Source: Nitrosopumilus sp. H13 (GTDB lineage Archaea > Thermoproteota > Nitrososphaeria > Nitrososphaerales > Nitrosopumilaceae). From it: DNA of 32,401 bases. Shown here in pieces: positions 3,164-32,401 of this stretch (positions within the stretch are counted from its first letter, which is position 1; each line of letters opens with the position of its first letter). The notes beneath the pieces are model-generated. The model did no database searches and was not told where the DNA came from. It saw only the letters and a program-made list of their open reading frames with translations. The stretch spans positions 1-32,401 of the forward strand of contig RHFB01000042.1 in assembly GCA_003724285.1 (NCBI GenBank), given 5' to 3'. Position numbers and translations under genes: made by a program.

Positions 3164-4024
3164 CTAATAGTTCCTTATCAGCAGCTCGTGGTGCCCCGTC
3201 CTCTTTTTAGAGTTGGAGTTGATCGAGCGGTTGGCCCGTATGCGCCTAGTCTTCCAGCGCCTGCCTGAAAACATTCCTGCGACCTCTGGCGAGTCCGAGT
3301 TTGAGAGCAGCACCTTGCAGCCTTTTGAGTCAAGCCTGCAGCACAGCTCGGCAAGCCGGGCCAGATCCCCGGTGGTAAAGTTCCTGCTCGTATAGCTGGT
3401 AAAGCTGGCCGTGTCGCTGACCGGCTGGTACGGCGGATCAAAGTATACGAGATCCCCCCTTTTTGCATCAGACAAGACGGCCTCAAAGTCGCGGCACTTT
3501 ATCGACACCTGCCCGGCCCGGAGCACGCCGCTTACCGCCCGGAGGTTCTCCTCGCTTACAATGTTGGGATTCGTATACCTGCCAAGCGGCACGTTGAACT
3601 GCCCCCTGCTATTCACCCGGTACAGTCCGTTAAAGCAGGTCCTGTTCAAAAACAGCAGCCGGGATGTCTTTTCAATCCCGCTTCTGGGGCGGCCGTCCCG
3701 GACATGGTAATAGTATGACTTTGGACTGGCGTGGTATCTCTTTTCGTGCGATTTCAGCGAGCGTATCAGATCGTCGATCCTGTCGCGTATCGTGGTGTAT
3801 GCCAGCACCAGATCCGAGTTGAGATCAGAAATGCCGCACTTCTGACCAGGCCTCTCCTCCAGCATGTGAAACAACAGGGCCCCGCCTCCAAGAAACGGCT
3901 CGTAATACGCCCCAAATGATGCAGGCAGGTTCTCATGTAGCACAGTCAGGAGCTGCCGCTTGCCTCCGGCCCACTTTACAAAGGGCCTGGGCACTCCAAG
4001 CATCTGACCGTACTGCTGGCTCAT
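3164..4024 (-). CDS. dam: Dam-type (D12 class) DNA adenine N6-methyltransferase, no adjacent nuclease
   Basis: A 286-residue protein with the full D12/Dam motif set: FVKWAGGKRQ near the N-terminus (AdoMet-binding region), EPFLGGGALLF (motif I-like), and catalytic DPPY in DLVYFDPPYQPVSDTASFTSY. The C-terminal half is the usual helical region. Members transfer a methyl group from AdoMet to adenine N6, often in GATC, but specificity cannot be read from the sequence. No restriction gene is adjacent: upstream lies amoA and downstream a convergent envelope gene. It may therefore be an orphan methylase for regulation or protection. The first residues before MLGVPRPFVKW may be dispensable, so the start could be 7 codons later. 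TATA-like AATATG lies ~26 nt upstream. Confidence 0.9.
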   Translation of the reverse strand: MSQQYGQMLGVPRPFVKWAGGKRQLLTVLHENLPASFGAYYEPFLGGGALLFHMLEERPGQKCGISDLNSDLVLAYTTIRDRIDDLIRSLKSHEKRYHASPKSYYYHVRDGRPRSGIEKTSRLLFLNRTCFNGLYRVNSRGQFNVPLGRYTNPNIVSEENLRAVSGVLRAGQVSIKCRDFEAVLSDAKRGDLVYFDPPYQPVSDTASFTSYTSRNFTTGDLARLAELCCRLDSKGCKVLLSNSDSPEVAGMFSGRRWKTRRIRANRSINSNSKKRTGHHELLIRNY

Positions 4025-4150: not shown

Positions 4151-4801
4151 CTAGTCCCACTTTGACCATGCGGCCATCCATCGGTATGTCCAAGTGTTGA
4201 GCTTTACGCCCAATGCCGCCATTGTTACTGACAGCACCGCGCCTGCGCCTGCACCCAGAGCAACCGGACTGTTGTAGAACTTGCCTACTTGCGGTTCAAT
4301 GGGTGTCATGTATGGCGGCAGCGTGGGTCTTGGATACTTGAATGCCGTTTCAAGTGGGTCTGCTACGGTTATCAGGTTTACCATGTTGAACAATGGCAAA
4401 GACATCCCTACCAGTACTCCCCCAAACAGGATCAACGAGTGCTTGTTCTTCTTCGTCGCCCAGTAGACCAGATCCAACAGCATTGCTGATGGCAGCCAAA
4501 CTGGCGTGACGATAAAGTCGTACGGATATCCGAGTGCAAACCATGCACCCTTTGCTATCCATGTGTACACCGTCATGATCAGGGCATAGTACGTAGCTGT
4601 TCCTGGAACGCCCGTAAAGGTGAGATAGTATGTAGCACCTACAACAAGCATCAAAGTTTGCGATATTGAAAATACCGTAAACGATGTCCAAGCCCAGTCA
4701 GTATAGAAGATGTAATCTCCTGCGTTAATAGTCAGCAGCGTAGAGTTTACTGCTACCACTACGATGAAGAGGTAGTGGGTACACCGTCTTAACCAGACCA
4801 T
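4151..4801 (-). CDS. amoA: Ammonia monooxygenase subunit A (archaeal AmoA)
   Basis: A 216-residue polytopic membrane protein, the usual length for archaeal AmoA, starting MVWLRRCTHYLFIVVVAVNS. Recognisable family stretches are NAGDYIFYTDWAWTSF, GVPGTATYYALIMTVYTW, YPYDFIVTPVWLPSAM and the C-terminal WTYRWMAAWSKWD. About six hydrophobic helices are visible. With AmoB and AmoC it forms the copper enzyme in the membrane that oxidises ammonia to hydroxylamine, the energy source of these archaea. It is first on the minus-strand side of the cluster, followed upstream by amoX and amoC on the same strand. It has its own TATA box and terminator. Its G+C content looks lower than the housekeeping genes to the right. 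Confidence 0.97.
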   Translation of the reverse strand: MVWLRRCTHYLFIVVVAVNSTLLTINAGDYIFYTDWAWTSFTVFSISQTLMLVVGATYYLTFTGVPGTATYYALIMTVYTWIAKGAWFALGYPYDFIVTPVWLPSAMLLDLVYWATKKNKHSLILFGGVLVGMSLPLFNMVNLITVADPLETAFKYPRPTLPPYMTPIEPQVGKFYNSPVALGAGAGAVLSVTMAALGVKLNTWTYRWMAAWSKWD

Positions 4802-4906: not shown

Positions 4907-5269
4907 CTAGTTTCCAACAAATAGTGATATCAGAACCGTGCCTACCGCGACTGCTGCTATGCTGACTGCCACGATGCCGTTGCTGTTCTTGTTGGAGCCC
5001 TCTTCCATGACCTTTACACAGAAGATGTAGCCTATCGCCTCTATGATCGTTAGTACGATGAATGCATAGTGACCGCTTGGTGTCGGGTATGCCCACGGGT
5101 AGTAAAAGTACCCTGCGGCCGTACCACCAAAGGTTGCCAACCATGCCGCCCAGAAAGAGACGGTGATTATACCGGTCATGTTTTCAACGCGTCGACCAAT
5201 CATTCGTTCCACGTCAGCGCTAGATGAACCTCCAGCACCACCGGATCCGAATCCCTTAGGTAGAGTCAT
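4907..5269 (-). CDS. amoX: AmoX, small membrane protein of the archaeal AMO cluster (orf38)
   Basis: A 120-residue protein between amoA and amoC on the same strand, the standard position of archaeal amoX. The N-terminus is Gly/Ser-rich (LPKGFGSGGAGGSSSAD). About three hydrophobic helices follow: GIITVSFWAAWLATFGGTAAGYF, HYAFIVLTIIEAIGYIFCVKV, and GIVAVSIAAVAVGTVLISLFVGN. AmoX is known only from archaeal ammonia oxidisers and is regarded as a structural subunit of the AMO complex with no known catalytic role. A weaker TATA-like box (ACTTAAAAGG) lies ~29 nt upstream, so it may be transcribed separately. Confidence 0.9.
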   Translation of the reverse strand: MTLPKGFGSGGAGGSSSADVERMIGRRVENMTGIITVSFWAAWLATFGGTAAGYFYYPWAYPTPSGHYAFIVLTIIEAIGYIFCVKVMEEGSNKNSNGIVAVSIAAVAVGTVLISLFVGN

Positions 5270-5383: not shown

Positions 5384-5947
5384 CTACGGGATTGATCTGC
5401 TGTACAATTTGCCTTCTAGGGCCATCTTGTACATTTCTGCAACATACGGGTTCTCACCTGGAGTCTCTGCACCAAGTTCCACGAGTCTGGCATATACCCT
5501 GACTACGTAGGCTAGTGCACCCATGAATGCTACTACTACACCCATGTTGAACATCCAGTGGTTTGGAACCGCGAATATCTCCTCTACAAACCAAAAGTGC
5601 CACATCTCATTGACTCCGATCGTGAACATGGTTGCCAGATAACCAAGGATGGTCATCTTTAGGCCGGTGTTCATCGAGTTGTTCGGACCCCTGAGGATTG
5701 GTACCTTTCTATCATAGATTGCAGCAGCACCCCATCCTAGTGGCAGAGCCACAAAGTGGGAGTACAGCCACCAGTGTGCTGGTGTAAATGCACTATCTCT
5801 GATAGAGGTCTGATGTAGAGAACCATCAACGAAGTTGTCTACCTCGACTGATGCTGCAGTTGAACCCATAGCGATGACGATGAGCCAGATCTTTTTGAGT
5901 CTCTGGATCTCGACTTCCTTTGGGATTAATGCGGGCATCTGTGCCAT
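5384..5947 (-). CDS. amoC: Ammonia monooxygenase subunit C (archaeal AmoC)
   Basis: A 187-residue membrane protein starting MAQMPALIPKEVEIQRLKK, the conserved archaeal AmoC N-terminus. Family stretches include STAASVEVDNFVDGSLHQTSIRD, AFTPAHWWLYSHF (Asp/His residues corresponding to the copper-site region of PmoC/AmoC), PILRGPNNSMNTGLKM and NEMWHFWFVEEIFAVPNHWMFN. Several transmembrane helices are visible. The ORF track begins 17 codons earlier (5998), but that extension covers the TATA box and lacks family similarity, so 5947 is chosen. It is divergent from amoB across a ~250-bp AT-rich region. Confidence 0.96.
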   Translation of the reverse strand: MAQMPALIPKEVEIQRLKKIWLIVIAMGSTAASVEVDNFVDGSLHQTSIRDSAFTPAHWWLYSHFVALPLGWGAAAIYDRKVPILRGPNNSMNTGLKMTILGYLATMFTIGVNEMWHFWFVEEIFAVPNHWMFNMGVVVAFMGALAYVVRVYARLVELGAETPGENPYVAEMYKMALEGKLYSRSIP

Positions 5948-5968
5948 GCCAACTATGACGATTGTTTT

Positions 5969-5980
5969 CAATATAAAGTA
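5969..5980 (-). promoter_or_regulatory. amoC TATA box deciding the amoC start
   Basis: Minus-strand TACTTTATATTG is centred ~28 nt upstream of the ATG at 5947. It falls inside the ORF-track extension and argues against the start at 5998. Confidence 0.6.
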
Positions 5981-5999
5981 AGAGTGCATATGGGACAAG

Positions 6000-6198: not shown

Positions 6199-6768
6199 AT
6201 GACTGAAAAAAAGATGTTAGCAGTCGGACTAGCCGTCGTTCTGGCGCTAGGCACTCTGGGTTTCAACTGGGTTGAGACACTGGTTCCAAGCGCAGAGGCA
6301 CACGGTGTCCAAGCACAACTTCAGAGTCGTTTCATCAAAATCGAGGACGAGACATTTAACAGACAGTCTCTGCAGACCGGCGAGACCTTGACAGTCACTG
6401 GAACGCTGACCAGCCTTGTAGAGAGAGACTTGAGGGGATGGCTATCCATCTTTTCAGAGTCAACCAATGCAGGCAACAGATGGGAGATGCTGGCAAGGGA
6501 ACCGCCAGGAAATGTCTTTGACATTTCAGGGAACACTGTAAGAGAGTACTCGTTGTCTGCAAAGGCACTAGAGGCAGGAGTGTACCACGTACACACCCAG
6601 CTCAATGTAGCCTCTGTCGGTCCAGGACTCGGTCCGGGTCAGACAGTAGTAGTCGATGGCGAGCCAATCATAAAGCCAATCCCATACACCAACATTGCAT
6701 ACCAGTCAATCATAATCGGCGTTGGTTATGTGATCACTTTTGCGACACGACCCTGGCAGGTAATTTAA
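6199..6768 (+). CDS. amoB: Ammonia monooxygenase subunit B (archaeal AmoB)
   Basis: A 189-residue protein. A signal/anchor helix (MLAVGLAVVLALGTLGFNW) ends near SAEAH. His35, just after the likely cleavage region, and the pair His130/His132 (VYHVHTQLNV) match the three histidines that bind copper in the particulate methane/ammonia monooxygenase B subunit. A C-terminal hydrophobic helix (YQSIIIGVGYVITFATRPW) anchors the extracellular cupredoxin-like domain. The length is typical for archaeal AmoB, which lacks the second cupredoxin domain of bacterial AmoB. It is transcribed away from amoA-X-C. Confidence 0.96.
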   Translation: MTEKKMLAVGLAVVLALGTLGFNWVETLVPSAEAHGVQAQLQSRFIKIEDETFNRQSLQTGETLTVTGTLTSLVERDLRGWLSIFSESTNAGNRWEMLAREPPGNVFDISGNTVREYSLSAKALEAGVYHVHTQLNVASVGPGLGPGQTVVVDGEPIIKPIPYTNIAYQSIIIGVGYVITFATRPWQVI

Positions 6769-6858: not shown

Positions 6859-7383
6859 ATGATATGGCCTGGAATGGGTGATCCGACAAAGCGGAAAAAG
6901 ACTCTGCGATTTCTGGCCATAACTGCAGTCATTGCAATCTCCGTGGGCCTGGCAAGCACCTTTATCCAGAGCTATCTGAGTACGGACAACCCCCTCAAGG
7001 CGTGCATAAATGACAGGCACACGCCGTACAGGATAACTGCCATCCTGGAGATAGAAGTAGACGGCCAGAGGGCAGACATTCCTGCAGGCATTGGCATGGA
7101 GGCGCCCAGCTGCCACAGGAGCATGTATACACTTACCAACGACGGAACCATCCATGCAGAATGGATTGAAGAGTACCCCTTTGAGATAGGCCACTTTTTG
7201 TGGATATGGGACTTTCCGCTCAGGGACATGGAGCAGTCAAAGTCGGCAATCTATGTGGACGGCACAGAGTCCCCGGACTTTATCAACCACCCATTCCAGG
7301 ACGGGCTCCACTACAAGGCAGTGTTTACATCAAAGGCGCATGACGAATCAAAGGACAGCGACTTTCTGCCTCCAGAGAACTAG
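6859..7383 (+). CDS. Membrane-anchored extracellular protein downstream of amoB, unknown function
   Basis: A 174-residue protein. A basic N-terminus (DPTKRKKTLRF) precedes a single hydrophobic helix (LAITAVIAISVGLASTFI), followed by an extracytoplasmic domain of ~130 residues. That domain has two cysteines (C49 in KACINDRHTPYRI; C84 in APSCHRSMYTL) and acidic/aromatic motifs (HFLWIWDFPLRDMEQS). I do not recognise a named family. A TTAATCAAAAAGACTTTAATG stretch before it provides possible TATA elements. It follows amoB in the same direction after a T-rich terminator and is convergent with the small membrane gene at 7448. Location next to amo suggests, but does not show, a role linked to AMO. 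Confidence 0.75.
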   Translation: MIWPGMGDPTKRKKTLRFLAITAVIAISVGLASTFIQSYLSTDNPLKACINDRHTPYRITAILEIEVDGQRADIPAGIGMEAPSCHRSMYTLTNDGTIHAEWIEEYPFEIGHFLWIWDFPLRDMEQSKSAIYVDGTESPDFINHPFQDGLHYKAVFTSKAHDESKDSDFLPPEN

Positions 7384-7447: not shown

Positions 7448-7717
7448 TTACCAGTACTTTCCGTTGTCTGGAATCAGACCAATGCCTTCGCGCTCAAAGT
7501 GTCTGTCCAGCTCGTCGACCCATCTTTCACGATTATCCTTGTAGGCCCATCCGTGCACTCGTAGCCAGAACGAGATGAGTCCCAGCAGGAATACGGTGAA
7601 CATGATGGTTCCAAAGATGTAGATCATTACATCGTAGAATAGTGGATCATAGTTTGGTCCCAGTTGCCCTGTCAGTAAGGACAGGATACTAAGGAAGATT
7701 TCCGCGATAGGAGCCAT
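7448..7717 (-). CDS. Small membrane protein near amo, candidate accessory AMO subunit
   Basis: An 89-residue protein: a hydrophobic N-terminal stretch (MAPIAEIFLSILSLLTG), one strong membrane helix (VMIYIFGTIMFTVFLLGLISFWL), then a charged C-terminal tail (YKDNRERWVDELDRHFEREGIGLIPDNGKYW). It has a near-ideal promoter (GGGAAATGTATATAT on the minus strand) ~29 nt upstream, pointing to strong leaderless expression like the amo genes. From memory, archaeal AMO purifications revealed two extra small membrane subunits, AmoY and AmoZ; size, topology and location make this a candidate. I cannot verify the assignment, so no symbol is given. Confidence 0.75.
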   Translation of the reverse strand: MAPIAEIFLSILSLLTGQLGPNYDPLFYDVMIYIFGTIMFTVFLLGLISFWLRVHGWAYKDNRERWVDELDRHFEREGIGLIPDNGKYW

Positions 7718-7739
7718 GATTCCTTGGCACTATCTGTGC

Positions 7740-7757
7740 GATATATACATTTCCCTT
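7740..7757 (-). promoter_or_regulatory. Strong BRE/TATA promoter of the 89-aa membrane protein
   Basis: Minus-strand AAAGGGAAATGTATATAT combines a purine-rich BRE-like segment with a TATA box centred ~29 nt before the ATG at 7717. Confidence 0.6.
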
Positions 7758-7797
7758 TCAGGTCAAAATGTGCGAGATCAGTAACCACTAGAGATGC

Positions 7798-7815
7798 CTA
7801 ATAAAAGAAGAAGTG
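7798..7815 (-). terminator. T-rich terminator after the 113-aa protein
   Basis: Minus-strand CCACTTCTTCTTTTATTAGG lies just past the stop of the 7823 gene. The T-run is weaker than those after amoA and amoC. Confidence 0.35.
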
Positions 7816-7822
7816 GATGGTA

Positions 7823-8164
7823 TTATCCCCTGCCCATTGCAGCATACTTGCCAGATTTGCCCCTCAGAAACAGGGCTCCGGCAATGCCGCCAAAGACAGC
7901 AGCAGATATGACTGCCGCACCGAGTACGCCTTCAGCGCCTAGAATTGGCGTTCCAGAGCCGGCTCCCGGGTTGTCAGTTACTGCATCTATCCTACGCTGT
8001 TGAAGTTCTAATGCCTCTTCTAGTGTCAGCTTTCCGGTCTCGCCATCCTGACCCACATTTCCCAGATATTGGGCAAATGCGACGGAGGTAGAACCGGCCG
8101 CTCCTAGAAACACTACAGACAGCACCAGAGTTGCCAAGAGTATTTTTGTCTTCATACCGATCAT
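7823..8164 (-). CDS. Small exported protein with C-terminal membrane helix, candidate accessory AMO subunit
   Basis: A 113-residue protein. A signal peptide (MKTKILLATLVLSVVFLGAAGSTSVAFAQ) is followed by a short extracellular segment with a helical KLTLEEALELQQRRIDAVTDN stretch, a Gly/Pro linker, then a C-terminal helix (GVLGAAVISAAVFGGIAGALFL) and a basic tail (RGKSGKYAAMGRG). This type I layout fits a small subunit exposed beside AmoB. It lies tandem with the 89-aa gene, 105 bp upstream of it, each with its own promoter. ATG 8164 and ATG 8155 (MKTK) are both possible; the TATA box (GGTTAAATAAC) is 24 or 33 nt away. The AmoY/AmoZ idea is inference. Confidence 0.75.
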   Translation of the reverse strand: MIGMKTKILLATLVLSVVFLGAAGSTSVAFAQYLGNVGQDGETGKLTLEEALELQQRRIDAVTDNPGAGSGTPILGAEGVLGAAVISAAVFGGIAGALFLRGKSGKYAAMGRG

Positions 8165-8182: not shown

Positions 8183-8195
8183 GTTATTTAACCTT
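8183..8195 (-). promoter_or_regulatory. TATA box of the 113-aa membrane protein
   Basis: Minus-strand AAAGGTTAAATAAC lies ~24 nt before the ATG at 8164. It is back-to-back with the rpsO promoter. Confidence 0.45.
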
Positions 8196-8251: not shown

Positions 8252-8275
8252 TCTGTTCCCAAAGCAGTGCCGGGC

Positions 8276-8725
8276 ATGGGACGAATGCACACCCACAGGC
8301 ACGGAAAATCGCACTCGATCAGGCCAGCCACGCTTCAGGCACCCGCCTGGGCAAAGATTGACGCAAAAGAGATAGAGGAACTGGTGGCAAAGTATGCAAA
8401 AGAGGGTATGACTCCCAGCCAGATCGGAATAAAGCTCCGGGATCAGCACGCCATCCCGCTTGCAAAGGTGGTAACCGGCAAGAGCATTGGCGAGATACTG
8501 GTACAAAACAAGCTCGTCACGGAGATGCCAGAGGACCTGGACAACATGGTAAAAAAGGCAGTCGGCCTGCAGAGGCACCTCAAGGAGAACAGGGGGGACA
8601 AGAGAAACGTCAGATCCCTCGAGCTCATAGAGGCAAAGGTGCACCGGCTCTCGGTATACTACAAGAAGATAGGGCGCATCCCCAAGACTTGGAAATATAA
8701 ATCAGTAGTGGCCCAGTTAGAGTAA
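8276..8725 (+). CDS. rpsO: 30S ribosomal protein uS15
   Basis: A 149-residue protein starting MGRMHTHRHGKSHSIRP, the typical archaeal/eukaryotic S15 N-terminus, longer than bacterial S15. The S15 core follows: DLDNMVKKAVGLQRHLKENRGDKRNVRSLELIEAKVHRLSVYYKK. It binds 16S rRNA in the small-subunit platform. It heads a tight operon with the next three genes: its TAA overlaps the recJ-like ATG (TAATG). The ORF track begins three codons earlier; 8276 is chosen from family start and promoter spacing. Confidence 0.96.
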   Translation: MGRMHTHRHGKSHSIRPATLQAPAWAKIDAKEIEELVAKYAKEGMTPSQIGIKLRDQHAIPLAKVVTGKSIGEILVQNKLVTEMPEDLDNMVKKAVGLQRHLKENRGDKRNVRSLELIEAKVHRLSVYYKKIGRIPKTWKYKSVVAQLE

Positions 8726-12435: not shown

Positions 12436-14931
12436 TTGAAAAGTAAGGCAAAAAAGAGCAAAAAAGTTGACAGATATACTCACGAAGATTCAAAGAGACC
12501 AAACAACCCTCCCGTAGGGCTAGTTACTCCTAGAACGGATCCAGATTTACCCAACAAAAAATACCGGTATGACCCTAGGCTGGATCCGCAGCTGGAGTGG
12601 TCCGGCAAACAGGAGAATTTCGAATTTGAAGTAGATACGGTTTCTTTGCACGTACATGAAAGAGTTGATCCTCACACCATACTTGAAAAAGTAATGAAAC
12701 CAAAACAATCAGCTCAAGAAACAATGTTCAATTATTTTGAGATGCCTGAGAACAATCCTCCGTTAAGAGATGCCATAGAATTTTACAAACATGATCAGAA
12801 TTGGTCTAATCGTTTGATTGCAGGAGACTCATTGTTGGTAATGAATTCACTTTTGGAAAAAGAAGGCATGGAAGGAAAAATACAGATGATTTACATAGAT
12901 CCACCATATGGCATCAAATACAAATCTAATTTCCAGCCTTTTATAAATAAACAAAATGTAAAAGATGGTAAAGATGAAGATTTGACACAAGAGCCTGAGA
13001 TGATAAAAGCATTCAAAGATACTTGGGAATTAAAAATTCATTCATATCTTACATATTTACGTTCTAGATTATTTTTATCAAAAAAATTATTAACTAAAAG
13101 TGGGAGTATATTTGTACAAATTTCTGATGAAAATTTACATCATGTTAGAGAAATTATGGATGAAATCTTTGGTAGTAAAAATTATGTTCGAATTATACAA
13201 TTTAGAAAAAAAACAATGCCATTAGGTGGTAAAATATTAGAAGAAATGTATGATTATCTTGTCTGGTATGCAAATGATATTTCACATATCAAATATAATC
13301 AATTATACGTACCACAAAAAATATCTGAAAATAGTTATTGGAATGTAGTTAAACTACCAGATGGTAGTATTAGATCATTAACAAATGAAGAAAAAAAAGA
13401 CATAAGTAATATTCCAAAAAATGCAAAACTTGCAACAACCGTGGGATTAAAACCGCCTACACCTCAAGAAATAGATAATTATGATTTTGAACTAGATGGG
13501 AAAATATACAAGCCATCAGGAAGTTGGATGACAAATAAAGAAGGAATGAAAAAGATTGCAAAAGCAGGAAGATTAGTTCCTTCAGGAAGTACATTACGGT
13601 ATTTACTATTGTTTGATGATTTTCCATATTCTAAACTTACTAATAATTGGAGCGATACTAGTGGCGTACAAAAGAAAAAATATGTGGTTCAAACATCTGA
13701 TGAAATTCTACAAAGATGTATTTTAATGACAACAAATCCTTCAGATATAATACTAGATCCAACGTGTGGATCTGGAACTAGTGCCTATGTTGCAGAAAAA
13801 TATGGTCGCAGATGGATCACAATTGACACATCTAGAATTGCCATATTTATTGCTCACACAAGATTGATGACTTCTTATTTTGATTATTATGTGTTAAATA
13901 ATCCTAAAGAAGGTGTAACATCGGGATTTAAATTAAAGAATACGACTAAAATATCATCACGAACTATAATTAATAATGAAGAAGCTAAAACAATTGTTTT
14001 ATACGATAAACCAATTAAAAATAAATCAACAGTTAGGATTTCAGGTCCATTTACTGTAGAAGCAGTTCCGGCGCCAACAGTAAAATCACTTGATGTTTTA
14101 TCACAAAAAGAACCTAATTTTGATCACACAATCATGAGAAATTTAAAAAATTCGCATCAACAAGAATGGCGTGATGAATTGTTAAAAACAGGAATACGTG
14201 GAAAGAAAGGTCAAAAGATTGAATTTAGCAAGGTAGACATACACTCTGCAACAAGATGGCTTCATGCAGATGCTGAGACTAAAGAAAATTCAAAACGAGT
14301 AATGATATCATTTGGTCCAGAATATTTACCGTTAGAACAAAGACAAATTGAATTAGCTATTGAAGAAGCACGTACATTAGTTCCAAAACCTCTAATTATA
14401 ATATTTGCAGCAATGCAGTTTGATCCAGAAGCTGCCAAAGATATTGATGAGTTGAAATGGCCTGGAGTTACAATACTCAAAGTAGAGATGAACAAGGATC
14501 TACTTACAAAAGATCTAAAGAAAAAGCGTTCAAGTAATGAATCATTTTGGCTCATGGGGCAGCCTGACATAGAATTGCAAAAAAATAAAGAAAAAAAATA
14601 CACTATCAAAGTGAACGGATTTGATTATTACAACACAAAAACAGGCGAAATTGAATCCGGAGGTTCATCCAAAATTGCCATGTGGTCATTAGATACAGAT
14701 TATGATGGTAGAAGTGTATATCCACAACAAATATTCTTTCCAATGGAGGGGAGTTCGGGAGGATGGAGCAAGCTTGCAAAAACTCTGCAATCACAGATCG
14801 ATGAAGAATTAATTGTCAAATACCAAGGAATAGAATCGATTCCATTTGAGGCAGGTTCTAACAAAAGAGCTGCTGTAAAGATCGTTGATGACAGAGGAAT
14901 TGAATCCCTAAAAATTGTGAAGCTTGAATAA
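12436..14931 (+). CDS. mod: Type III restriction-modification system, Mod methyltransferase
   Basis: An 831-residue protein of the beta class of N6-adenine/N4-cytosine methyltransferases: catalytic IYIDPPYGIKYKSN (Asp155) comes first and the AdoMet-binding ILDPTCGSGTSAYVAEKYGRRW (Asp441) later, with the variable target-recognition region between. The long C-terminal part is typical of larger type III Mod-like proteins. The Mod subunit reads the site and methylates it, and is needed by Res for cleavage. The start is TTG; the next in-frame ATG is far inside, and a TATA-like box lies ~29 nt upstream. Bases ~13000-14450 are strikingly AT-rich compared with both ends of the gene and with the window, a sign of transfer or domain exchange. 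The stop overlaps the res ATG (TAATG). Confidence 0.92.
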   Translation: MKSKAKKSKKVDRYTHEDSKRPNNPPVGLVTPRTDPDLPNKKYRYDPRLDPQLEWSGKQENFEFEVDTVSLHVHERVDPHTILEKVMKPKQSAQETMFNYFEMPENNPPLRDAIEFYKHDQNWSNRLIAGDSLLVMNSLLEKEGMEGKIQMIYIDPPYGIKYKSNFQPFINKQNVKDGKDEDLTQEPEMIKAFKDTWELKIHSYLTYLRSRLFLSKKLLTKSGSIFVQISDENLHHVREIMDEIFGSKNYVRIIQFRKKTMPLGGKILEEMYDYLVWYANDISHIKYNQLYVPQKISENSYWNVVKLPDGSIRSLTNEEKKDISNIPKNAKLATTVGLKPPTPQEIDNYDFELDGKIYKPSGSWMTNKEGMKKIAKAGRLVPSGSTLRYLLLFDDFPYSKLTNNWSDTSGVQKKKYVVQTSDEILQRCILMTTNPSDIILDPTCGSGTSAYVAEKYGRRWITIDTSRIAIFIAHTRLMTSYFDYYVLNNPKEGVTSGFKLKNTTKISSRTIINNEEAKTIVLYDKPIKNKSTVRISGPFTVEAVPAPTVKSLDVLSQKEPNFDHTIMRNLKNSHQQEWRDELLKTGIRGKKGQKIEFSKVDIHSATRWLHADAETKENSKRVMISFGPEYLPLEQRQIELAIEEARTLVPKPLIIIFAAMQFDPEAAKDIDELKWPGVTILKVEMNKDLLTKDLKKKRSSNESFWLMGQPDIELQKNKEKKYTIKVNGFDYYNTKTGEIESGGSSKIAMWSLDTDYDGRSVYPQQIFFPMEGSSGGWSKLAKTLQSQIDEELIVKYQGIESIPFEAGSNKRAAVKIVDDRGIESLKIVKLE

Positions 14932-17777
14932 TGTCTGAAATCAAAAATCTCATAATCTGTGGCCCTTATGAAAAACCATCCCAGCATTGGAAATATGATC
15001 GCAACAAAAGAAAATTTGATCTAGTTGCTGGAAGAAGATCTGCTGGATTCTTGATTGCATCACAAGACAGCAAATCATTTGATGATCCGGGGGAATTTAG
15101 AGAATTAGAACTGGTTAATAAAATACGTGACAGAGTTGATGATTGGAGAGATAGAAATTATCCAAATGTTACGGGCATTACAAAACAGTTGCTTGAGTTT
15201 TGGAAAGACAAGAGCAAACGGGATAACAGATTTTTCTTTTGTCAGATTGAGGCAATAGAGACACTAATCTGGCTGGTCGAGGGATCTGATGCAGAGAAAC
15301 AGGGGATAAACATACCGTCGGATGGAGGACTGTTCCAAAGACTGTGCTGTAAGATGGCAACTGGTACAGGGAAGACAGTGGTAATGGCGATGGCAGTTGC
15401 TTGGCAAGTAGTCAACAAGGTAACATTTCCACAGGATACCAGATTCTCAAAAAACATCCTGATCATGGCTCCCGGACTGACTGTGAAATCAAGACTACAG
15501 GTCTTGTTTCCAACTGATGGAGATAATTTCTATGATTCATTCAATATAATCCCAGAATCATTTCGTGAAAGATTGTTCCAAGGTAAGTTCAAAATACACA
15601 ACTGGCACACATTAATGCCTGAAACTGATGCTCCAAGAAATGTAGTAAAACTTGGAGAAGAAAGTAATGGTGTATTTTCAAAGAGGATTCTGGACCATGA
15701 TCTCAAAAACATCATTGTCATAAATGATGAGGCACATCATGCATATCGCGCAAATACTGAGCAGATAAAAAACATATCAAAGGCGGATCTTGAGCGTGAC
15801 AAACGCTGGATTGAAGGATTAGACAAGATACACGATGCGAGAAATATCATCCATTGCTTTGATTTTTCTGCAACTCCATTCATCCCATCTGGAAAGAATG
15901 TTTCTGAGGACACATTGTTTGGCTGGATTGTATCCGATTTTTCTCTAAATGATGCCATTGAGTCAGGTTTGACAAAGACACCTAGAATTGCAATCAGAGA
16001 TGACAGTAATAAATTTTCAAAAGAATATCGCTCAAGATTTTACCACCTGTACAAGGATGACGAGGTAAAGCCCGATCTTAATAGAAACGCAGAACCTCAT
16101 GAAAAGCTGCCGGATCTGGTGTCAAACGCGTACTTTCTTTTGGGTCAGGACTGGATTGAGACAAAGAAGTATTGGGACAAGAAGGGATCAAAGATTCCTC
16201 CAGTAATGATAACTGTGTGCAACAAAACCGCGACCGCTGCAAGAGTGATGCATTCATTTGAAAAGAATAGGTTTGAGCTAAAGGAACTCTCAGTTCCAGA
16301 ACATTTACTACACATAGACTCTACCACAATAAACAAAGCTGAAGAAAAGGAGATAGAAGGCAAGACCGATGAAGAGGAGAGTTTGAGAAAAAAGGTAGAC
16401 ACGGTAGGAAAGATGGGTAAGACTGGCGAGCAGATAAGGAACATTGTTGCAGTTCAGATGCTGTCGGAGGGATGGGATGCGCGAAACGTCACCCACATCA
16501 TGGGTCTGAGGGCATTTTCCAGCCAGCTATTATGCGAGCAAGTGGTCGGCAGAGGGCTACGCAGAACATCCTACGAAGTTGATCCAGACACGGGCTTGTT
16601 TTCTCCAGAACATGTCAATGTGTTCGGAGTGCCGTTCACATTTCTGCCCCATGAAGGAGGAGATGGAACTCCTCCGCCTCCGACAATGCCAACCACCACA
16701 ATCGAGCCGGATCCAGACAAGGCAGAACACAGAATCTCTTGGCCAAACATCGAAAGGATTGATGTTGATTTTCTGCCACAGCTTGCAGTAGATTGGGAAA
16801 AAATCAAAACATTGGAATTACGAAGTGACGGGATCAGCACTACCGTGGGAATGGCTCAAGTTCTGGCAGGAAAGCCACATGTGGACAAGATGTCAGAGAT
16901 TGATCTACACGAGTTAAACAAGGAGATCAGACTACAGCGGATAATCTTTCTTGCCGCAAAAGACGTCTATGACAGCCTATCTCCTAGCTGGAAAGGAGGA
17001 AAAGAGATTCTCCTTATACAGATTGTAAGGCTTGTAGAGGAATTCATTCATTCAGACAAGATCAACGTGACAGACGTATCTGATGACGAGCTTCGAAGAA
17101 AGATGACAATTTTGTTCAACATGCAAAAGGTCGTTGCCCATGTCTGCAAGAGCATCACGGATTCCAATGTGGAGAAAAGGCAGATTCATCTCAATTCCAA
17201 CAAGCCCATAAAATCCACATCCGATATGCGCCCATGGTCTACAAAAAAGCCTGCCGAATACACCGTAAAATCCCACATAAATCTGGCAGTCTATGACTCC
17301 AAGTGGGAAATGAGCGCAGGACAGGAACTGGAGAGAAATAAAAACGTGAACTCCTGGGTGAGAAACGATCACATTGGCTTTGTGATAAAATACATGTACA
17401 ATGGGATCCTGCATGATTATTATCCTGATTTTCTTATCAGGCTGGAAAATAACGCAACTCTGGTCCTAGAGATCAAGGGGATAGACAACAACCAAAACAA
17501 GGAAAAGCGCAGGTATCTAGAGGAATGGGCAGGGGTGGTAAACGAGAATGGTGGCTATGGCACCTGGGTGTGGGACGTGGCGTTTCATCCAAGCGAGGTC
17601 CGGGGGATAATTACCAAGCATGCCAGAACCAAGGTCTCGGCAACCGAGTATGCAAAGTGTCCCAAATGCGGCAAGATCGCCCAGTCAAGGCAGGAGGTCG
17701 AAAAGGGCTTTGGATTCCGCAATATAGATGGCATTGCCAGACCCCAGTCATGGTGCAGAAACTGCAGAAAATCCTAA
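14931..17777 (+). CDS. res: Type III restriction enzyme, Res helicase-nuclease subunit
   Basis: A 948-residue SF2 translocase with nuclease domain. Walker A is MATGTGKTVVM (about 142-149), the DEAH-type Walker B is VINDEAHHAYR (Asp266), motif III FDFSATPF is near 312, and motif VI QVVGRGLRR is near 537. The PD-(D/E)xK nuclease motif is YYPDFLI...LVLEIKG (Asp833, Glu847, Lys849). The extreme C-terminus carries a zinc-ribbon-like CPKC...WCRNC (Cys910/913/942/945), an extra not expected in every Res. With Mod it cleaves unmethylated target sites using ATP. The reading frame is intact with all catalytic residues, so the system looks functional. Base composition drifts from AT-rich at the 5' side toward the genomic norm at the 3' end. 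Confidence 0.93.
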   Translation: MSEIKNLIICGPYEKPSQHWKYDRNKRKFDLVAGRRSAGFLIASQDSKSFDDPGEFRELELVNKIRDRVDDWRDRNYPNVTGITKQLLEFWKDKSKRDNRFFFCQIEAIETLIWLVEGSDAEKQGINIPSDGGLFQRLCCKMATGTGKTVVMAMAVAWQVVNKVTFPQDTRFSKNILIMAPGLTVKSRLQVLFPTDGDNFYDSFNIIPESFRERLFQGKFKIHNWHTLMPETDAPRNVVKLGEESNGVFSKRILDHDLKNIIVINDEAHHAYRANTEQIKNISKADLERDKRWIEGLDKIHDARNIIHCFDFSATPFIPSGKNVSEDTLFGWIVSDFSLNDAIESGLTKTPRIAIRDDSNKFSKEYRSRFYHLYKDDEVKPDLNRNAEPHEKLPDLVSNAYFLLGQDWIETKKYWDKKGSKIPPVMITVCNKTATAARVMHSFEKNRFELKELSVPEHLLHIDSTTINKAEEKEIEGKTDEEESLRKKVDTVGKMGKTGEQIRNIVAVQMLSEGWDARNVTHIMGLRAFSSQLLCEQVVGRGLRRTSYEVDPDTGLFSPEHVNVFGVPFTFLPHEGGDGTPPPPTMPTTTIEPDPDKAEHRISWPNIERIDVDFLPQLAVDWEKIKTLELRSDGISTTVGMAQVLAGKPHVDKMSEIDLHELNKEIRLQRIIFLAAKDVYDSLSPSWKGGKEILLIQIVRLVEEFIHSDKINVTDVSDDELRRKMTILFNMQKVVAHVCKSITDSNVEKRQIHLNSNKPIKSTSDMRPWSTKKPAEYTVKSHINLAVYDSKWEMSAGQELERNKNVNSWVRNDHIGFVIKYMYNGILHDYYPDFLIRLENNATLVLEIKGIDNNQNKEKRRYLEEWAGVVNENGGYGTWVWDVAFHPSEVRGIITKHARTKVSATEYAKCPKCGKIAQSRQEVEKGFGFRNIDGIARPQSWCRNCRKS

Positions 17778-28422: not shown

Positions 28423-30591
28423 CTAGCTGTCCGGGCAGCCGTCAGTATCTGCATCGCCGTCATAGTCTTCTGGCTCTGCAGGACACAGATCTGCGCTGTC
28501 GAGGATGCCGTCTAGGTCGCTATCATGTATGAATCTGCGCTGCTCTGGAATCGTGTCGGGACAGCCGTCAGTATCCCTGAACTTGTTCCATGTCTCGGGG
28601 CTTGTCGGGCACGAATCCTCGTGGTCGTAGTGGCCGTCGCCGTCGGCATCAAACCTGGTGGGAGCAGTCGGCTCTGCGCCCTTTACATCAGGGCAGCCGT
28701 CCCAGTCAAGATAGCCGTTAAAGTTTTCTGCCTCGTCAATGCATATGTCGCGCCTGTCATCAATTCCGTCATTGTCAGTATCAGGGAACGTAAACTGCCG
28801 CACATCGACTGGCTGCGTGTCGGGGCAGCCGTCAGAGTCCTCAAGCCCGTTGTACACCTCGGATTCAAGCGGGCAGGAGTCAAGATCATCGATTATGCCG
28901 TCAGAGTCAGAGTCAAGTGTGGATTTAAAGCCGTCCGGGCAGCCGTCCTTGTCATCTACTCCGTTGAATGTCTCCGGCTGGCCGGGACACAGATCCACGT
29001 TGTCAGCGATGCCGTCAGAGTCAGAGTCAAACGCAGGCCGGTTGGCTGCCGCATAGTCCGGGCAGCCGTCCTCGTCCTGGATTCTGTTGTATGTCTCCCT
29101 TGCAAAGGGGCACTCGTCTACGTTGTCAATCACGCCGTCAAAATCGGCGTCTCCAAACGAGTCATATACCTGACGGTCCGGGCAGCCGTCCTCGTCATGG
29201 AATCCGTTGTGTACTTCTGCAATTAACGGACATTCGTCATTGTGGTCTGGCACACCGTCAAAATCGGCGTCTGGCGCGGCTGGAGTCGTCACGCCTTTCA
29301 CGTCGGGGCAGCCGTCCCAGTCAAGATACTCGTTATAGTTTTCTGCCTCGTCAATGCACGAGTCGCGCCTGTCCTCTATTCCGTCGCCGTCTGCATCGGG
29401 GAACGCGAACTGGGTCAGCAGGGTCTCTGTGGCATCGGGGCAGCCGTCGCGGTCATGGAGGCCGTTGTATTTTTCAGGCTCTAACGGACACTGGTCGGCA
29501 TTATCGGGGATTCCGTCCTGGTCCACGTCCTTTAGGGTGTATGCGTCATCGGGGCAGCCGTCTTTGTCGTCGATTCCGTTGGGCGTCTCTGGCTGGCCGG
29601 GGCAAGAATCAATGTCGTCTCTGATTCCGTCGCCGTCAGAGTCAAATGCAAGTTTGTTGACAGATATTTGATCCGGACAGCCGTCCTCGTCCTGGAATTT
29701 GTTATAGGTCTCCTTTGAGTTGGGACACACGTCAAGCAGATCCGTGATACCATCAGAGTCAGAGTCAGACACTGTGGAAGGCAGTACACGGGCCACGTCC
29801 GGGCAGCCGTCAGAGTCCTCAAACTTGTTATAGTTCTCGCGCTCTAGAGGGCACTCATCAACAGAGTCAATTATCGAGTCATAGTCGGTGTCTATCTCGC
29901 TGGATTTAACACCTGCCGTGTCGGGGCAGCCGTCCCAGTCAAGATAGCCGTTAAAGTTTTCTGCCTCGTCAATGCACACATCCCACCTGTCATCAATTCC
30001 GTCATTGTCCGTATCAGGGAACGTAAACTGCCGTACATCGACTGGCGGCGTGTCGGGGCAGCCGTCAGAGTCAAGATATCTGTTGTACGTCTCTGATTCA
30101 AGCGGGCATGTATCTGCACCATCAGATATGCCGTCCCGGTCGACGTCCGGAATCGAGTTGATGTCATCGGGGCAGCCGTCCTTGTCATCTACGCCGTTGA
30201 ATGTCTCTGGCTGGCCGGGGCACAAGTCAAGATAGTCCGGGTACCCATCGGCGTCAGAGTCTGCAATGCCCTTGCCGTCTGCGGCAGAAACATCCGGGCA
30301 GCCGTCCTCGTCGTCTACGCGGTTGTAAGTCTCCTTTACGGTGGGGCAGTCATCTATGTGGTCCTGAATCCCGTCAAAGTCAGTGTCATACCACGGGACA
30401 AAGTCGGCGGGACAGCCGTCTATGTTGTTACCGTACTGGGGATCATAATCCTCGAGCAGGTGGGGGCAGCGGTCCATGCCGTTTGGAACCCCGTCGCCGT
30501 CAGAATCAAGCACCTCTGCTGCATGCGCGCCCTGCATCATGCCTACTGTGGCTATCAGGAGCATCATGCCTAGAATGCGGTATCGTCTCAT
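28423..30591 (-). CDS. Secreted Asp-rich thrombospondin type 3-like repeat protein
   Basis: A 722-residue protein starting MRRYRILGMMLLIATVGMMQGAHAAE, a clear signal peptide. The mature part is entirely 17 units of ~38-42 residues of the form D.D.DGI.D..D.CP...E.YN...D.DGCPD. Each has a Ca2+-binding-type DxDxDG loop and a Cys pair, as in thrombospondin type 3 repeats. The units form a five-unit superrepeat: CPGQPE.FNGVDDKDGCPD, CPLE.E.Y, CIDEAEN.N.YLDWDGCPD, and two others. There is no membrane anchor or sortase-like tail. The ORF-track start includes out-of-frame sequence of the upstream gene; ATG 30591 has the signal peptide and a TATA-like box. A calcium-stabilised secreted or surface rod is the likely nature. 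Confidence 0.88.
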   Translation of the reverse strand: MRRYRILGMMLLIATVGMMQGAHAAEVLDSDGDGVPNGMDRCPHLLEDYDPQYGNNIDGCPADFVPWYDTDFDGIQDHIDDCPTVKETYNRVDDEDGCPDVSAADGKGIADSDADGYPDYLDLCPGQPETFNGVDDKDGCPDDINSIPDVDRDGISDGADTCPLESETYNRYLDSDGCPDTPPVDVRQFTFPDTDNDGIDDRWDVCIDEAENFNGYLDWDGCPDTAGVKSSEIDTDYDSIIDSVDECPLERENYNKFEDSDGCPDVARVLPSTVSDSDSDGITDLLDVCPNSKETYNKFQDEDGCPDQISVNKLAFDSDGDGIRDDIDSCPGQPETPNGIDDKDGCPDDAYTLKDVDQDGIPDNADQCPLEPEKYNGLHDRDGCPDATETLLTQFAFPDADGDGIEDRRDSCIDEAENYNEYLDWDGCPDVKGVTTPAAPDADFDGVPDHNDECPLIAEVHNGFHDEDGCPDRQVYDSFGDADFDGVIDNVDECPFARETYNRIQDEDGCPDYAAANRPAFDSDSDGIADNVDLCPGQPETFNGVDDKDGCPDGFKSTLDSDSDGIIDDLDSCPLESEVYNGLEDSDGCPDTQPVDVRQFTFPDTDNDGIDDRRDICIDEAENFNGYLDWDGCPDVKGAEPTAPTRFDADGDGHYDHEDSCPTSPETWNKFRDTDGCPDTIPEQRRFIHDSDLDGILDSADLCPAEPEDYDGDADTDGCPDS

Positions 30592-30614
30592 CTCTGATCC
30601 AGCTGGAGCAAAGT

Positions 30615-30624
30615 ATCTATTAAA
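30615..30624 (-). promoter_or_regulatory. TATA box of the first repeat-protein gene
   Basis: Minus-strand AGTTTAATAG in the 52-bp gap between the paralogues is centred ~28 nt before ATG 30591. Confidence 0.45.
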
Positions 30625-30643
30625 CTTCACGTCATCACCGTCT

Positions 30644-32401
30644 TTATGGATCCGGACAGCCGTCCTCGTCGGCATCCCCGTCAAAGTCCTCCGGCTCTGT
30701 AGGACACAAGTCGTTGTTGTTGAGCAGGCCGTCAAGATCAGAGTCATGCACAAAGCGTTGCTGTTCGGGAGCGATGTCGGGGCAGCCGTCAGAGTCAAAG
30801 TACTTGTTCCATGTCTCGGGGCTTGTCGGGCACGAGTCTTCCGCGTCTGGGTAGCCATCCCTGTCAGAGTCGGCGTATGTGGGAATAGACGGCTCTGCAC
30901 CTCTTGTGTCGGGGCAGCCGTCCCAGTCAAGATAGCCGTTGTGGTTCTCAGGCTTGTCAATGCATACATCCCGCCTGTCCTCTATTCCGTCGCCGTCAGT
31001 ATCGGGAAACGCAAACTGGGGCAGTGCAGTCTGCGTCTTGTCGGGGCAGCCGTCTGAATCATCAAGTCCGTTGTAGACTTCGGGCTGGTTCGGGCACGCA
31101 TCTAGCGGGTCGGAGATTCCGTCTGAATCTGCATCCCTAGAGGTGAGTGTGCTGTCCGGGCAGCCGTCTGAATCATCAAGGCCGTTGTAGACTTCGGGCT
31201 GGCCTGGGCACAGATCGACGCTGTCTGCGATCGCGTCGCCGTCAGAGTCGGCCTCTAGCTTGTTGTCTGCCACCACGTCGGGGCAGCCGTCTGCGTCCTG
31301 GAAAAAGTTGTATGTCTCTTTTAGCGCGGGACATGCATCCACGTTATCAAACAGTCCGTCACCGTCGCTGTCTCTTATTATGCTGTGCTCTACGCTGTCG
31401 GGGCAGCCGTCCTCGTCCTGGAATCCGTTGTGTATTTCTGCAGTGTCAGGGCATTGGTCAAGTGAATCGAGGATGCCGTCATAATCGGCATCAATGTTCA
31501 CATTGGCAGATATGCCTTTTACGTCGGGGCAGCCGTCCCAGTCAAGATAGTCGTTATAGTTTTCTGCCTCGTCAATGCATACATCCCGCCTGTCCTCTAT
31601 TCCGTCATTGTCCGTATCTGGGAACTCGTATTGCTTTGTTACAATCTCTGCCACGTCTGGACACCCGTCTGAATCCTCAAACTTGTTATAGTTTTCAGGC
31701 TCTGCGGGGCACTGATCCACTGCATCTGGGATTCCGTCTGAATCAGAGTCCGGGATCGCCTCAGAGTCTTCCGGGCAGCCGTCGTCGTCCTGGAATCCGT
31801 TGTAGACTTCGGGCTGGCCTGGGCATAGATCAACGCTGTCTGCGATCGCGTCGCCGTCAGAGTCGGCCTCTAGCTTGTTGTCTGCCACCACATCGGGGCA
31901 ACCGTCTGAATCATCAAGGCCGTTGTACGTCTCCGAGCTGTACGGACAGGCGTCGTCTGGATCTGGTATTCCATCTGCATCAATGTCATGTACTATCAAG
32001 AGTCTTAGTGTATCCGGACAGCCGTCTGAATCCTCAAACTTGTTATAGTTTTCGCGCTCTAGCGGGCAAGAGTCTCTGTCGTCTGATATTCCGTCAAAGT
32101 CGGCATCAGGCTTGTCGCCTGCGCTGGTTCCCATTACGTCGGGGCAGCCGTCGCGGTCAAGATAGTCGTTATAGTTTTCTGCCTCGTCAATGCATACATC
32201 CCGCCTGTCCTCTATTCCGTCACCGTCAGTATCGGGAAATGTGAACTGGGACAGTGCAGTCTGTGTCTTGTCGGGACAGCCGTCTGAATCATCAAGTCCG
32301 TTGTAGACTTCGGGCTGGTTCGGGCACTGATCCACTGCATCTGGGATTCCGTCTGAATCAGAGTCCGGGATCGCCTCAGAGTCTTCCGGGCAGCCGTCGT
32401 C
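30644..32401 (-). CDS. Second thrombospondin type 3-like repeat protein, N-terminus outside the window
   Basis: The frame is open from the window edge to TAA at 30644 (585 codons visible), so the ORF-track start at 32335 is only an internal Met. It contains 15 DGCP-ending units (the first partial) with the same five-unit order as the neighbour: CPGQPE, CP[NA][QE]PE, CIDEAENYNDYLD[W/R]DGCPD, two more, then back. The ends of the two proteins are close copies (HDSDLDG.L...DLCP.EPED.DGDAD.DGCPD), so they are tandem paralogues. Some blocks recur almost unchanged inside the gene, for example VVADNKLEADSDGDAIADSVDLC twice. The signal peptide should lie beyond 32401. Confidence 0.88.
   Translation of the reverse strand, partial: DDGCPEDSEAIPDSDSDGIPDAVDQCPNQPEVYNGLDDSDGCPDKTQTALSQFTFPDTDGDGIEDRRDVCIDEAENYNDYLDRDGCPDVMGTSAGDKPDADFDGISDDRDSCPLERENYNKFEDSDGCPDTLRLLIVHDIDADGIPDPDDACPYSSETYNGLDDSDGCPDVVADNKLEADSDGDAIADSVDLCPGQPEVYNGFQDDDGCPEDSEAIPDSDSDGIPDAVDQCPAEPENYNKFEDSDGCPDVAEIVTKQYEFPDTDNDGIEDRRDVCIDEAENYNDYLDWDGCPDVKGISANVNIDADYDGILDSLDQCPDTAEIHNGFQDEDGCPDSVEHSIIRDSDGDGLFDNVDACPALKETYNFFQDADGCPDVVADNKLEADSDGDAIADSVDLCPGQPEVYNGLDDSDGCPDSTLTSRDADSDGISDPLDACPNQPEVYNGLDDSDGCPDKTQTALPQFAFPDTDGDGIEDRRDVCIDKPENHNGYLDWDGCPDTRGAEPSIPTYADSDRDGYPDAEDSCPTSPETWNKYFDSDGCPDIAPEQQRFVHDSDLDGLLNNNDLCPTEPEDFDGDADEDGCPDP

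Follow-up and report, generated by a model that had tools for sequence, protein, structure and literature searches.

The question raised by this locus is whether two small genes lying close to amoB encode additional subunits of the archaeal ammonia monooxygenase (AMO) and, if they do, which gene encodes which subunit. The initial annotation of the window (the whole stretch of 32,401 nucleotides analyzed here) had put forward two tandem minus-strand open reading frames (ORFs) of 89 and 113 amino acids as candidates for AmoY and AmoZ, leaving their assignment undecided. Both proteins have been proposed as AMO subunits by Hodgskiss et al. 2023 (PMC10030591): AmoY (NVIE_004540, 9.6 kDa, Nmar_1506) and AmoZ (NVIE_004550, 12.8 kDa, Nmar_1507), with amoZ directly upstream of amoY and the pair one to two genes from amoABCX in most Nitrosopumilaceae. 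The published evidence for membership in the complex comes from blue-native gels and cross-links and is limited to two species, N. viennensis and N. cavascurensis (PMC10030591).

By sequence, size, gene order, and distribution, the 89-amino-acid protein matches AmoY and the 113-amino-acid protein matches AmoZ, which bears out the proposal and settles the assignment. We consider it very probable that the two genes are orthologues of amoY and amoZ and encode accessory membrane subunits of the archaeal enzyme. The pair is thus already known from Hodgskiss et al. 2023 (PMC10030591), and what the raw sequence confirms is a full six-subunit archaeal AMO set in a high-GC Nitrosopumilus-type genome. 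The assembly that holds the window (1.18 Mb, 92 contigs, 84% complete) falls in the genus to which most of the Nitrosopumilus genomes belong.

Two small membrane proteins beside amoB

Both ORFs are present where the initial annotation had placed them, each with an ATG, and they begin about 680 and 1055 bp past the end of amoB, with a single gene, orf174, in between (Table 1). Their proposed anatomy is also seen in the hydrophobic segments of the two proteins. AmoY has one such segment, a transmembrane (TM) helix at about residues 29-51, followed by a charged tail, and its segment GPxYDPLFYDV is very conserved. AmoZ is composed of a signal peptide, with a hydrophobic N-terminus ending in AFAQY, one extracytoplasmic helix, a GSGTP loop, a C-terminal TM helix (the second hydrophobic segment, at about residues 76-98 in Met4 numbering), and a short basic tail. 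Single-chain structure models, whose confidence is low to moderate, served only to set helix limits: for AmoY the mean pLDDT is 73.7, with a helix at 25-77 whose TM part reaches about 90, in keeping with a small helical protein with one TM segment, and for AmoZ it is 62.1 (low overall confidence), with helices at 2-32, 45-61, and 74-106.

Table 1. Positions of the AMO genes, their neighbors, and other features within the window
Feature	Position	Strand	Remarks
286-aa ORF	3164-4024	-	resembles DNA adenine methyltransferase
amoA	4151..4801	-	PF12942, E 3.8e-118
amoX	4907..5269	-	named by position and conservation at that position
amoC	5384..5998	-	ORF begins at TTG as listed; actual start probably more internal
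amoB	6199..6768	+	context gene
orf174	6859..7383	+	174-aa membrane-anchored extracytoplasmic protein between amoB and amoY
amoY	7448..7717	-	89 aa, ATG start; charged C-terminal tail with end GIGLIPDNGKYW
amoY promoter element	7740..7752	-	AAATGTATATATC; TATATA at 7742-7747, -30 to -25 from ATG
amoZ	7823..8155	-	most likely 110 aa, from conserved Met4; 113 aa (7823-8164) from the ATG further upstream, at 8164
amoZ TATA-like element	8185..8191	-	TTAAATA, -36 to -30 from Met4
rps15	8267..8725	+	30S ribosomal protein S15; most constant neighbor of amoZ/amoY
Low-GC stretch	12436-17777	+	two large ORFs, 831 and 948 aa
Repetitive ORFs	28423-32335	-	848 and 563 aa, overlapping in different frames

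Homology and distribution

Sequence homology to the published family was found for both proteins. In a closed Nitrososphaera-type genome of 2,527,938 bp (G253), which is probably N. viennensis or one of its close relatives, profile searches recovered AmoY (E 4e-36) and AmoZ (E 1e-12) in the published order, amoZ directly upstream of amoY, with computed masses of 9.56 and 12.84 kDa for published values of 9.6 and 12.8. The best named relative of the 89-amino-acid protein is from Nitrosopumilus sp. D6 (97% identity). Compared with the copies in a closed Nitrosopumilus genome of 1,645,259 bp (G046), presumably that of N. maritimus SCM1, AmoY is 92% identical and AmoZ 69%. Against the N. maritimus-like copies, amoY has a dN of 0.04 and a dS of 1.05 (dN/dS about 0.04) and amoZ a dN of 0.24 and a dS of 1.8, the dS values being rough and close to saturation; amoY is under strong purifying selection.

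Within the Nitrosopumilaceae, homologues of the 89- and 113-amino-acid proteins occur in 165 and 179 of 200 genomes, respectively, and both are found in all 22 sampled genera. These counts and the dN and dS of amoY mark the two as real genes and not chance ORFs. Across the class (300 genomes), AmoA was detected in 201 genomes (34 genera), AmoY in 198 (33 genera), and AmoZ in 215 (34 genera), and the occurrence of both small proteins follows that of AmoA. Among the matches listed, AmoY is confined to families f1, f2, and f3, and AmoZ to families f1, f2, f3, and f5, all of them AmoA-bearing, so that in these matches both proteins are conserved in ammonia-oxidizing archaea and absent from non-oxidizers. 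Incomplete assemblies and extra copies could account for the higher AmoZ count. One f5 genome (G248; 97% complete, 130 contigs) has AmoA and AmoZ; no AmoY was detected in this assembly at E <= 0.001, perhaps owing to an assembly gap.

Neither protein has a Pfam or NCBIfam family above cut-off, sequence searches of the PDB with both returned chance matches only, and no relative of either was found on viral contigs. With homologues in the expected ammonia-oxidizing families and no assignment to an unrelated one, the identification stands.

Promoters and start codons

The initial annotation had given each gene a TATA box at leaderless spacing, which holds for amoY and probably not for amoZ; its description of both genes as strongly promoted is a guess from sequence. 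Upstream of amoY, the element AAATGTATATATC is near-invariant across the family, and T[AT]TATA occurs at -38 to -21 in 23 of the 24 sequences compared (mononucleotide shuffles: mean 0.8, maximum 4), a figure that measures conservation and not independent events because the sequences are related. Its spacing would suit a leaderless transcript. For amoZ, homologues align from Met4, and most relatives carry AGGTAAAC or a variant of it immediately ahead of this codon, so translation probably starts at Met4 (position 8155) to give 110 amino acids; a leaderless start at 8164 was rejected on these grounds. The TTAAATA element, located at -38 to -41 from Met4 in relatives, would then leave a short leader of about 6-10 nt.

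Small size is all that could suggest chance ORFs or a misannotation, and this explanation, to which we give practically no credence, is refuted by class-wide conservation of the proteins, the low dN/dS of amoY, and the conserved promoter.

Linkage to amo genes and to rps15

The order amoA-X-C-B-orf174-Y-Z-rps15 is retained in most of the sampled Nitrosopumilaceae, placing AmoY in synteny with amoABCX. Past rps15 lie a DHH-family gene, a small gene, and serS, the last named from sequence and conserved place. Genome G237, of the Nitrosocaldaceae type, has rps15 and the complete set of six amo genes in one place, in agreement with the statement of Hodgskiss et al. 2023 (PMC10030591) that all amo genes are together in Nitrosocaldaceae. 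The two small genes are separated (L062, L083) in the genus to which an uncultured Cenarchaeum belongs, an arrangement that fits the exception stated for Cenarchaeum in the same study (PMC10030591). In Nitrososphaeraceae, the pair keeps rps15 as its neighbor and amoA lies in another place: in the Nitrososphaera-type genome G253, the 12-kb region around amoZ-amoY-rps15 holds no other amo genes, and amoA is located at 2.29 Mb. Linkage of the pair to rps15 is therefore stronger than its linkage to amo.

This persistence of the amoZ-amoY-rps15 neighborhood where amo genes are scattered is what one would expect if the two were small membrane proteins unrelated to AMO that merely travel with rps15. 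We regard that reading as highly improbable, since occurrence of the two follows AmoA across the class, and the published gel and cross-link data on the complex (PMC10030591) have already largely refuted it.

The intervening gene orf174 is beside amoY and amoZ in most of the family and encodes two invariant cysteines (C49 and C85). Its product has no Pfam family, and some lineages that lack AmoA (f4, f12, and f18) have homologues of it as well.

A second AmoZ next to a membrane-bound winged-helix protein in relatives

Searches with the AmoZ profile revealed second, divergent AmoZ genes in several Nitrosopumilaceae. Where this arrangement occurs (within loci L261-L274 and L275-L290; genomes G030, G152, G104, G183, G025, G149, G146, G018, and others), the second AmoZ is divergently transcribed, about 90 bp from the gene for a membrane-bound winged-helix protein of about 260 amino acids. 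Among three copies of this neighbor that were tested, the winged-helix domain passes the PF13412 cut-off in L244 and L246 and stays below it in L248; the protein also has a TM segment and, ending its outer part, an AmoZ-like segment (ESLxxAKTkVxSVxxNPxxGSGTP). All 14 of the strongest full-length matches of the neighbor family (E below 1e-129) have a divergent AmoZ about 90 bp away; because the query profile was built from such neighboring pairs, this association is partly a product of selection, and the weaker group L275-L290 is the fairer test. There, matches with the AmoZ-like tail have an adjacent AmoZ, except for L282 near a contig end, and the tail-less matches (L283, L284, L286, L287, L289, and L290) have none within the flanking stretch examined. 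In Nitrososphaera-type genomes and G248 (L291-L301), the gene for a different HTH membrane protein immediately precedes, on the same strand, that for an AmoZ paralogue; its neighbor in G248 is the sole AmoZ found there.

In the assembly that holds the window (84% complete), the search did not find the module, and the only match was a related HTH protein, to the N-terminal 145 positions. We found no description of it in the open literature, a body of work with most subscription journals outside it. From these sequences, it is conceivable, if unlikely, that the outer segment of AmoZ doubles as a signaling module, and a role in sensing is conjecture. If AmoZ and the winged-helix protein were to bind the same partner, a transcription regulator could directly read the assembly or state of AMO, and the tie between the second AmoZ and an AmoZ-tailed membrane regulator would, if true, offer a testable route to AMO regulation.

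Subunits or co-migrating factors

AmoY and AmoZ might instead co-migrate with AMO without being fixed subunits of it, as factors for its assembly, copper loading, or anchoring. AmoZ showed no correlation with AmoABC in N. viennensis gels, and amoZ transcription is lower in N. maritimus (PMC10030591); the faster divergence of AmoZ than of AmoY from the copies in G046 and the second AmoZ copies of some genomes point the same way. In N. cavascurensis, however, AmoY and AmoZ both correlate with AmoABC, and both are in cross-links (PMC10030591). We think it rather improbable that the two are co-migrating factors and favor accessory subunits, a view of them as physical parts of the enzyme that rests on the published gels and cross-links (PMC10030591).

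As such subunits, AmoY and AmoZ would provide TM helices that are present in the bacterial enzymes and missing from archaeal AmoB and AmoC. AmoY would add one TM helix to the protomer, along with a charged tail, and its GPxYDPLFYDV segment would sit at the membrane boundary. AmoZ, exported by means of its signal peptide and anchored by its C-terminal TM helix, would have a helix on the outer face that covers AmoB on the outside. The published models place this helix against the soluble domain of AmoB, where it stands in for the C-terminal PmoB domain that is missing. We infer these contacts from the models and cross-links of PMC10030591. A sequence search of the PDB copy with the window AmoA found no related structure, which makes it important for structural work that the subunits are assigned correctly; we found no cryo-EM structure of archaeal AMO in the open literature, most subscription journals being outside it.

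Other features of the window

The low-GC stretch at 12436-17777 (down to 28%) was probably acquired, and its two large ORFs, judged by motifs only, resemble the methyltransferase and the helicase-type nuclease of a type III restriction-modification pair. The 286-amino-acid ORF near amoA carries FVKWAGGKRQ and DPPY motifs. The very large repetitive ORFs at 28423-32335 contain calcium-binding (thrombospondin type 3-like) DxDxDG repeats and are probably surface protein.

Comparison with known systems

The window AmoY shares with published AmoY (NVIE_004540, Nmar_1506, NCAV_0488) its sequence family, one TM helix, a mass of about 10 kDa, and a place directly downstream of amoZ, which in Nitrosopumilaceae is beside amoABCX. 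It is larger (10.5 vs. 9.6 kDa), with a longer N-terminal stretch, an altered stretch past the TM helix (HGWAYKDN), and an NGKYW end, differences that are common to other Nitrosopumilaceae.

The window AmoZ resembles published AmoZ (NVIE_004550, Nmar_1507, NCAV_0486) in its signal peptide, extracytoplasmic helix, GSGT loop, C-terminal TM helix with an FGG motif, and position directly upstream of amoY. Like other Nitrosopumilaceae AmoZ, it is without the two-cysteine segment of about 17 residues found in Nitrososphaera and Nitrosocaldus AmoZ, so the disulfide is absent and its outer part has a single helix where theirs has two, and that part of the published N. viennensis model is not transferable to it. 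A disulfide between two outer helices is a lineage-specific and not a defining trait; Hodgskiss et al. 2023 (PMC10030591) had already stated that the cysteines are lineage-specific, and we therefore rejected the missing disulfide as a novelty. With the C-terminal soluble domain of bacterial PmoB/AmoB, AmoZ has no sequence relation, and it is a separate small protein; the likeness between the two lies in the place beside the AmoB soluble domain that the published model proposes for it.
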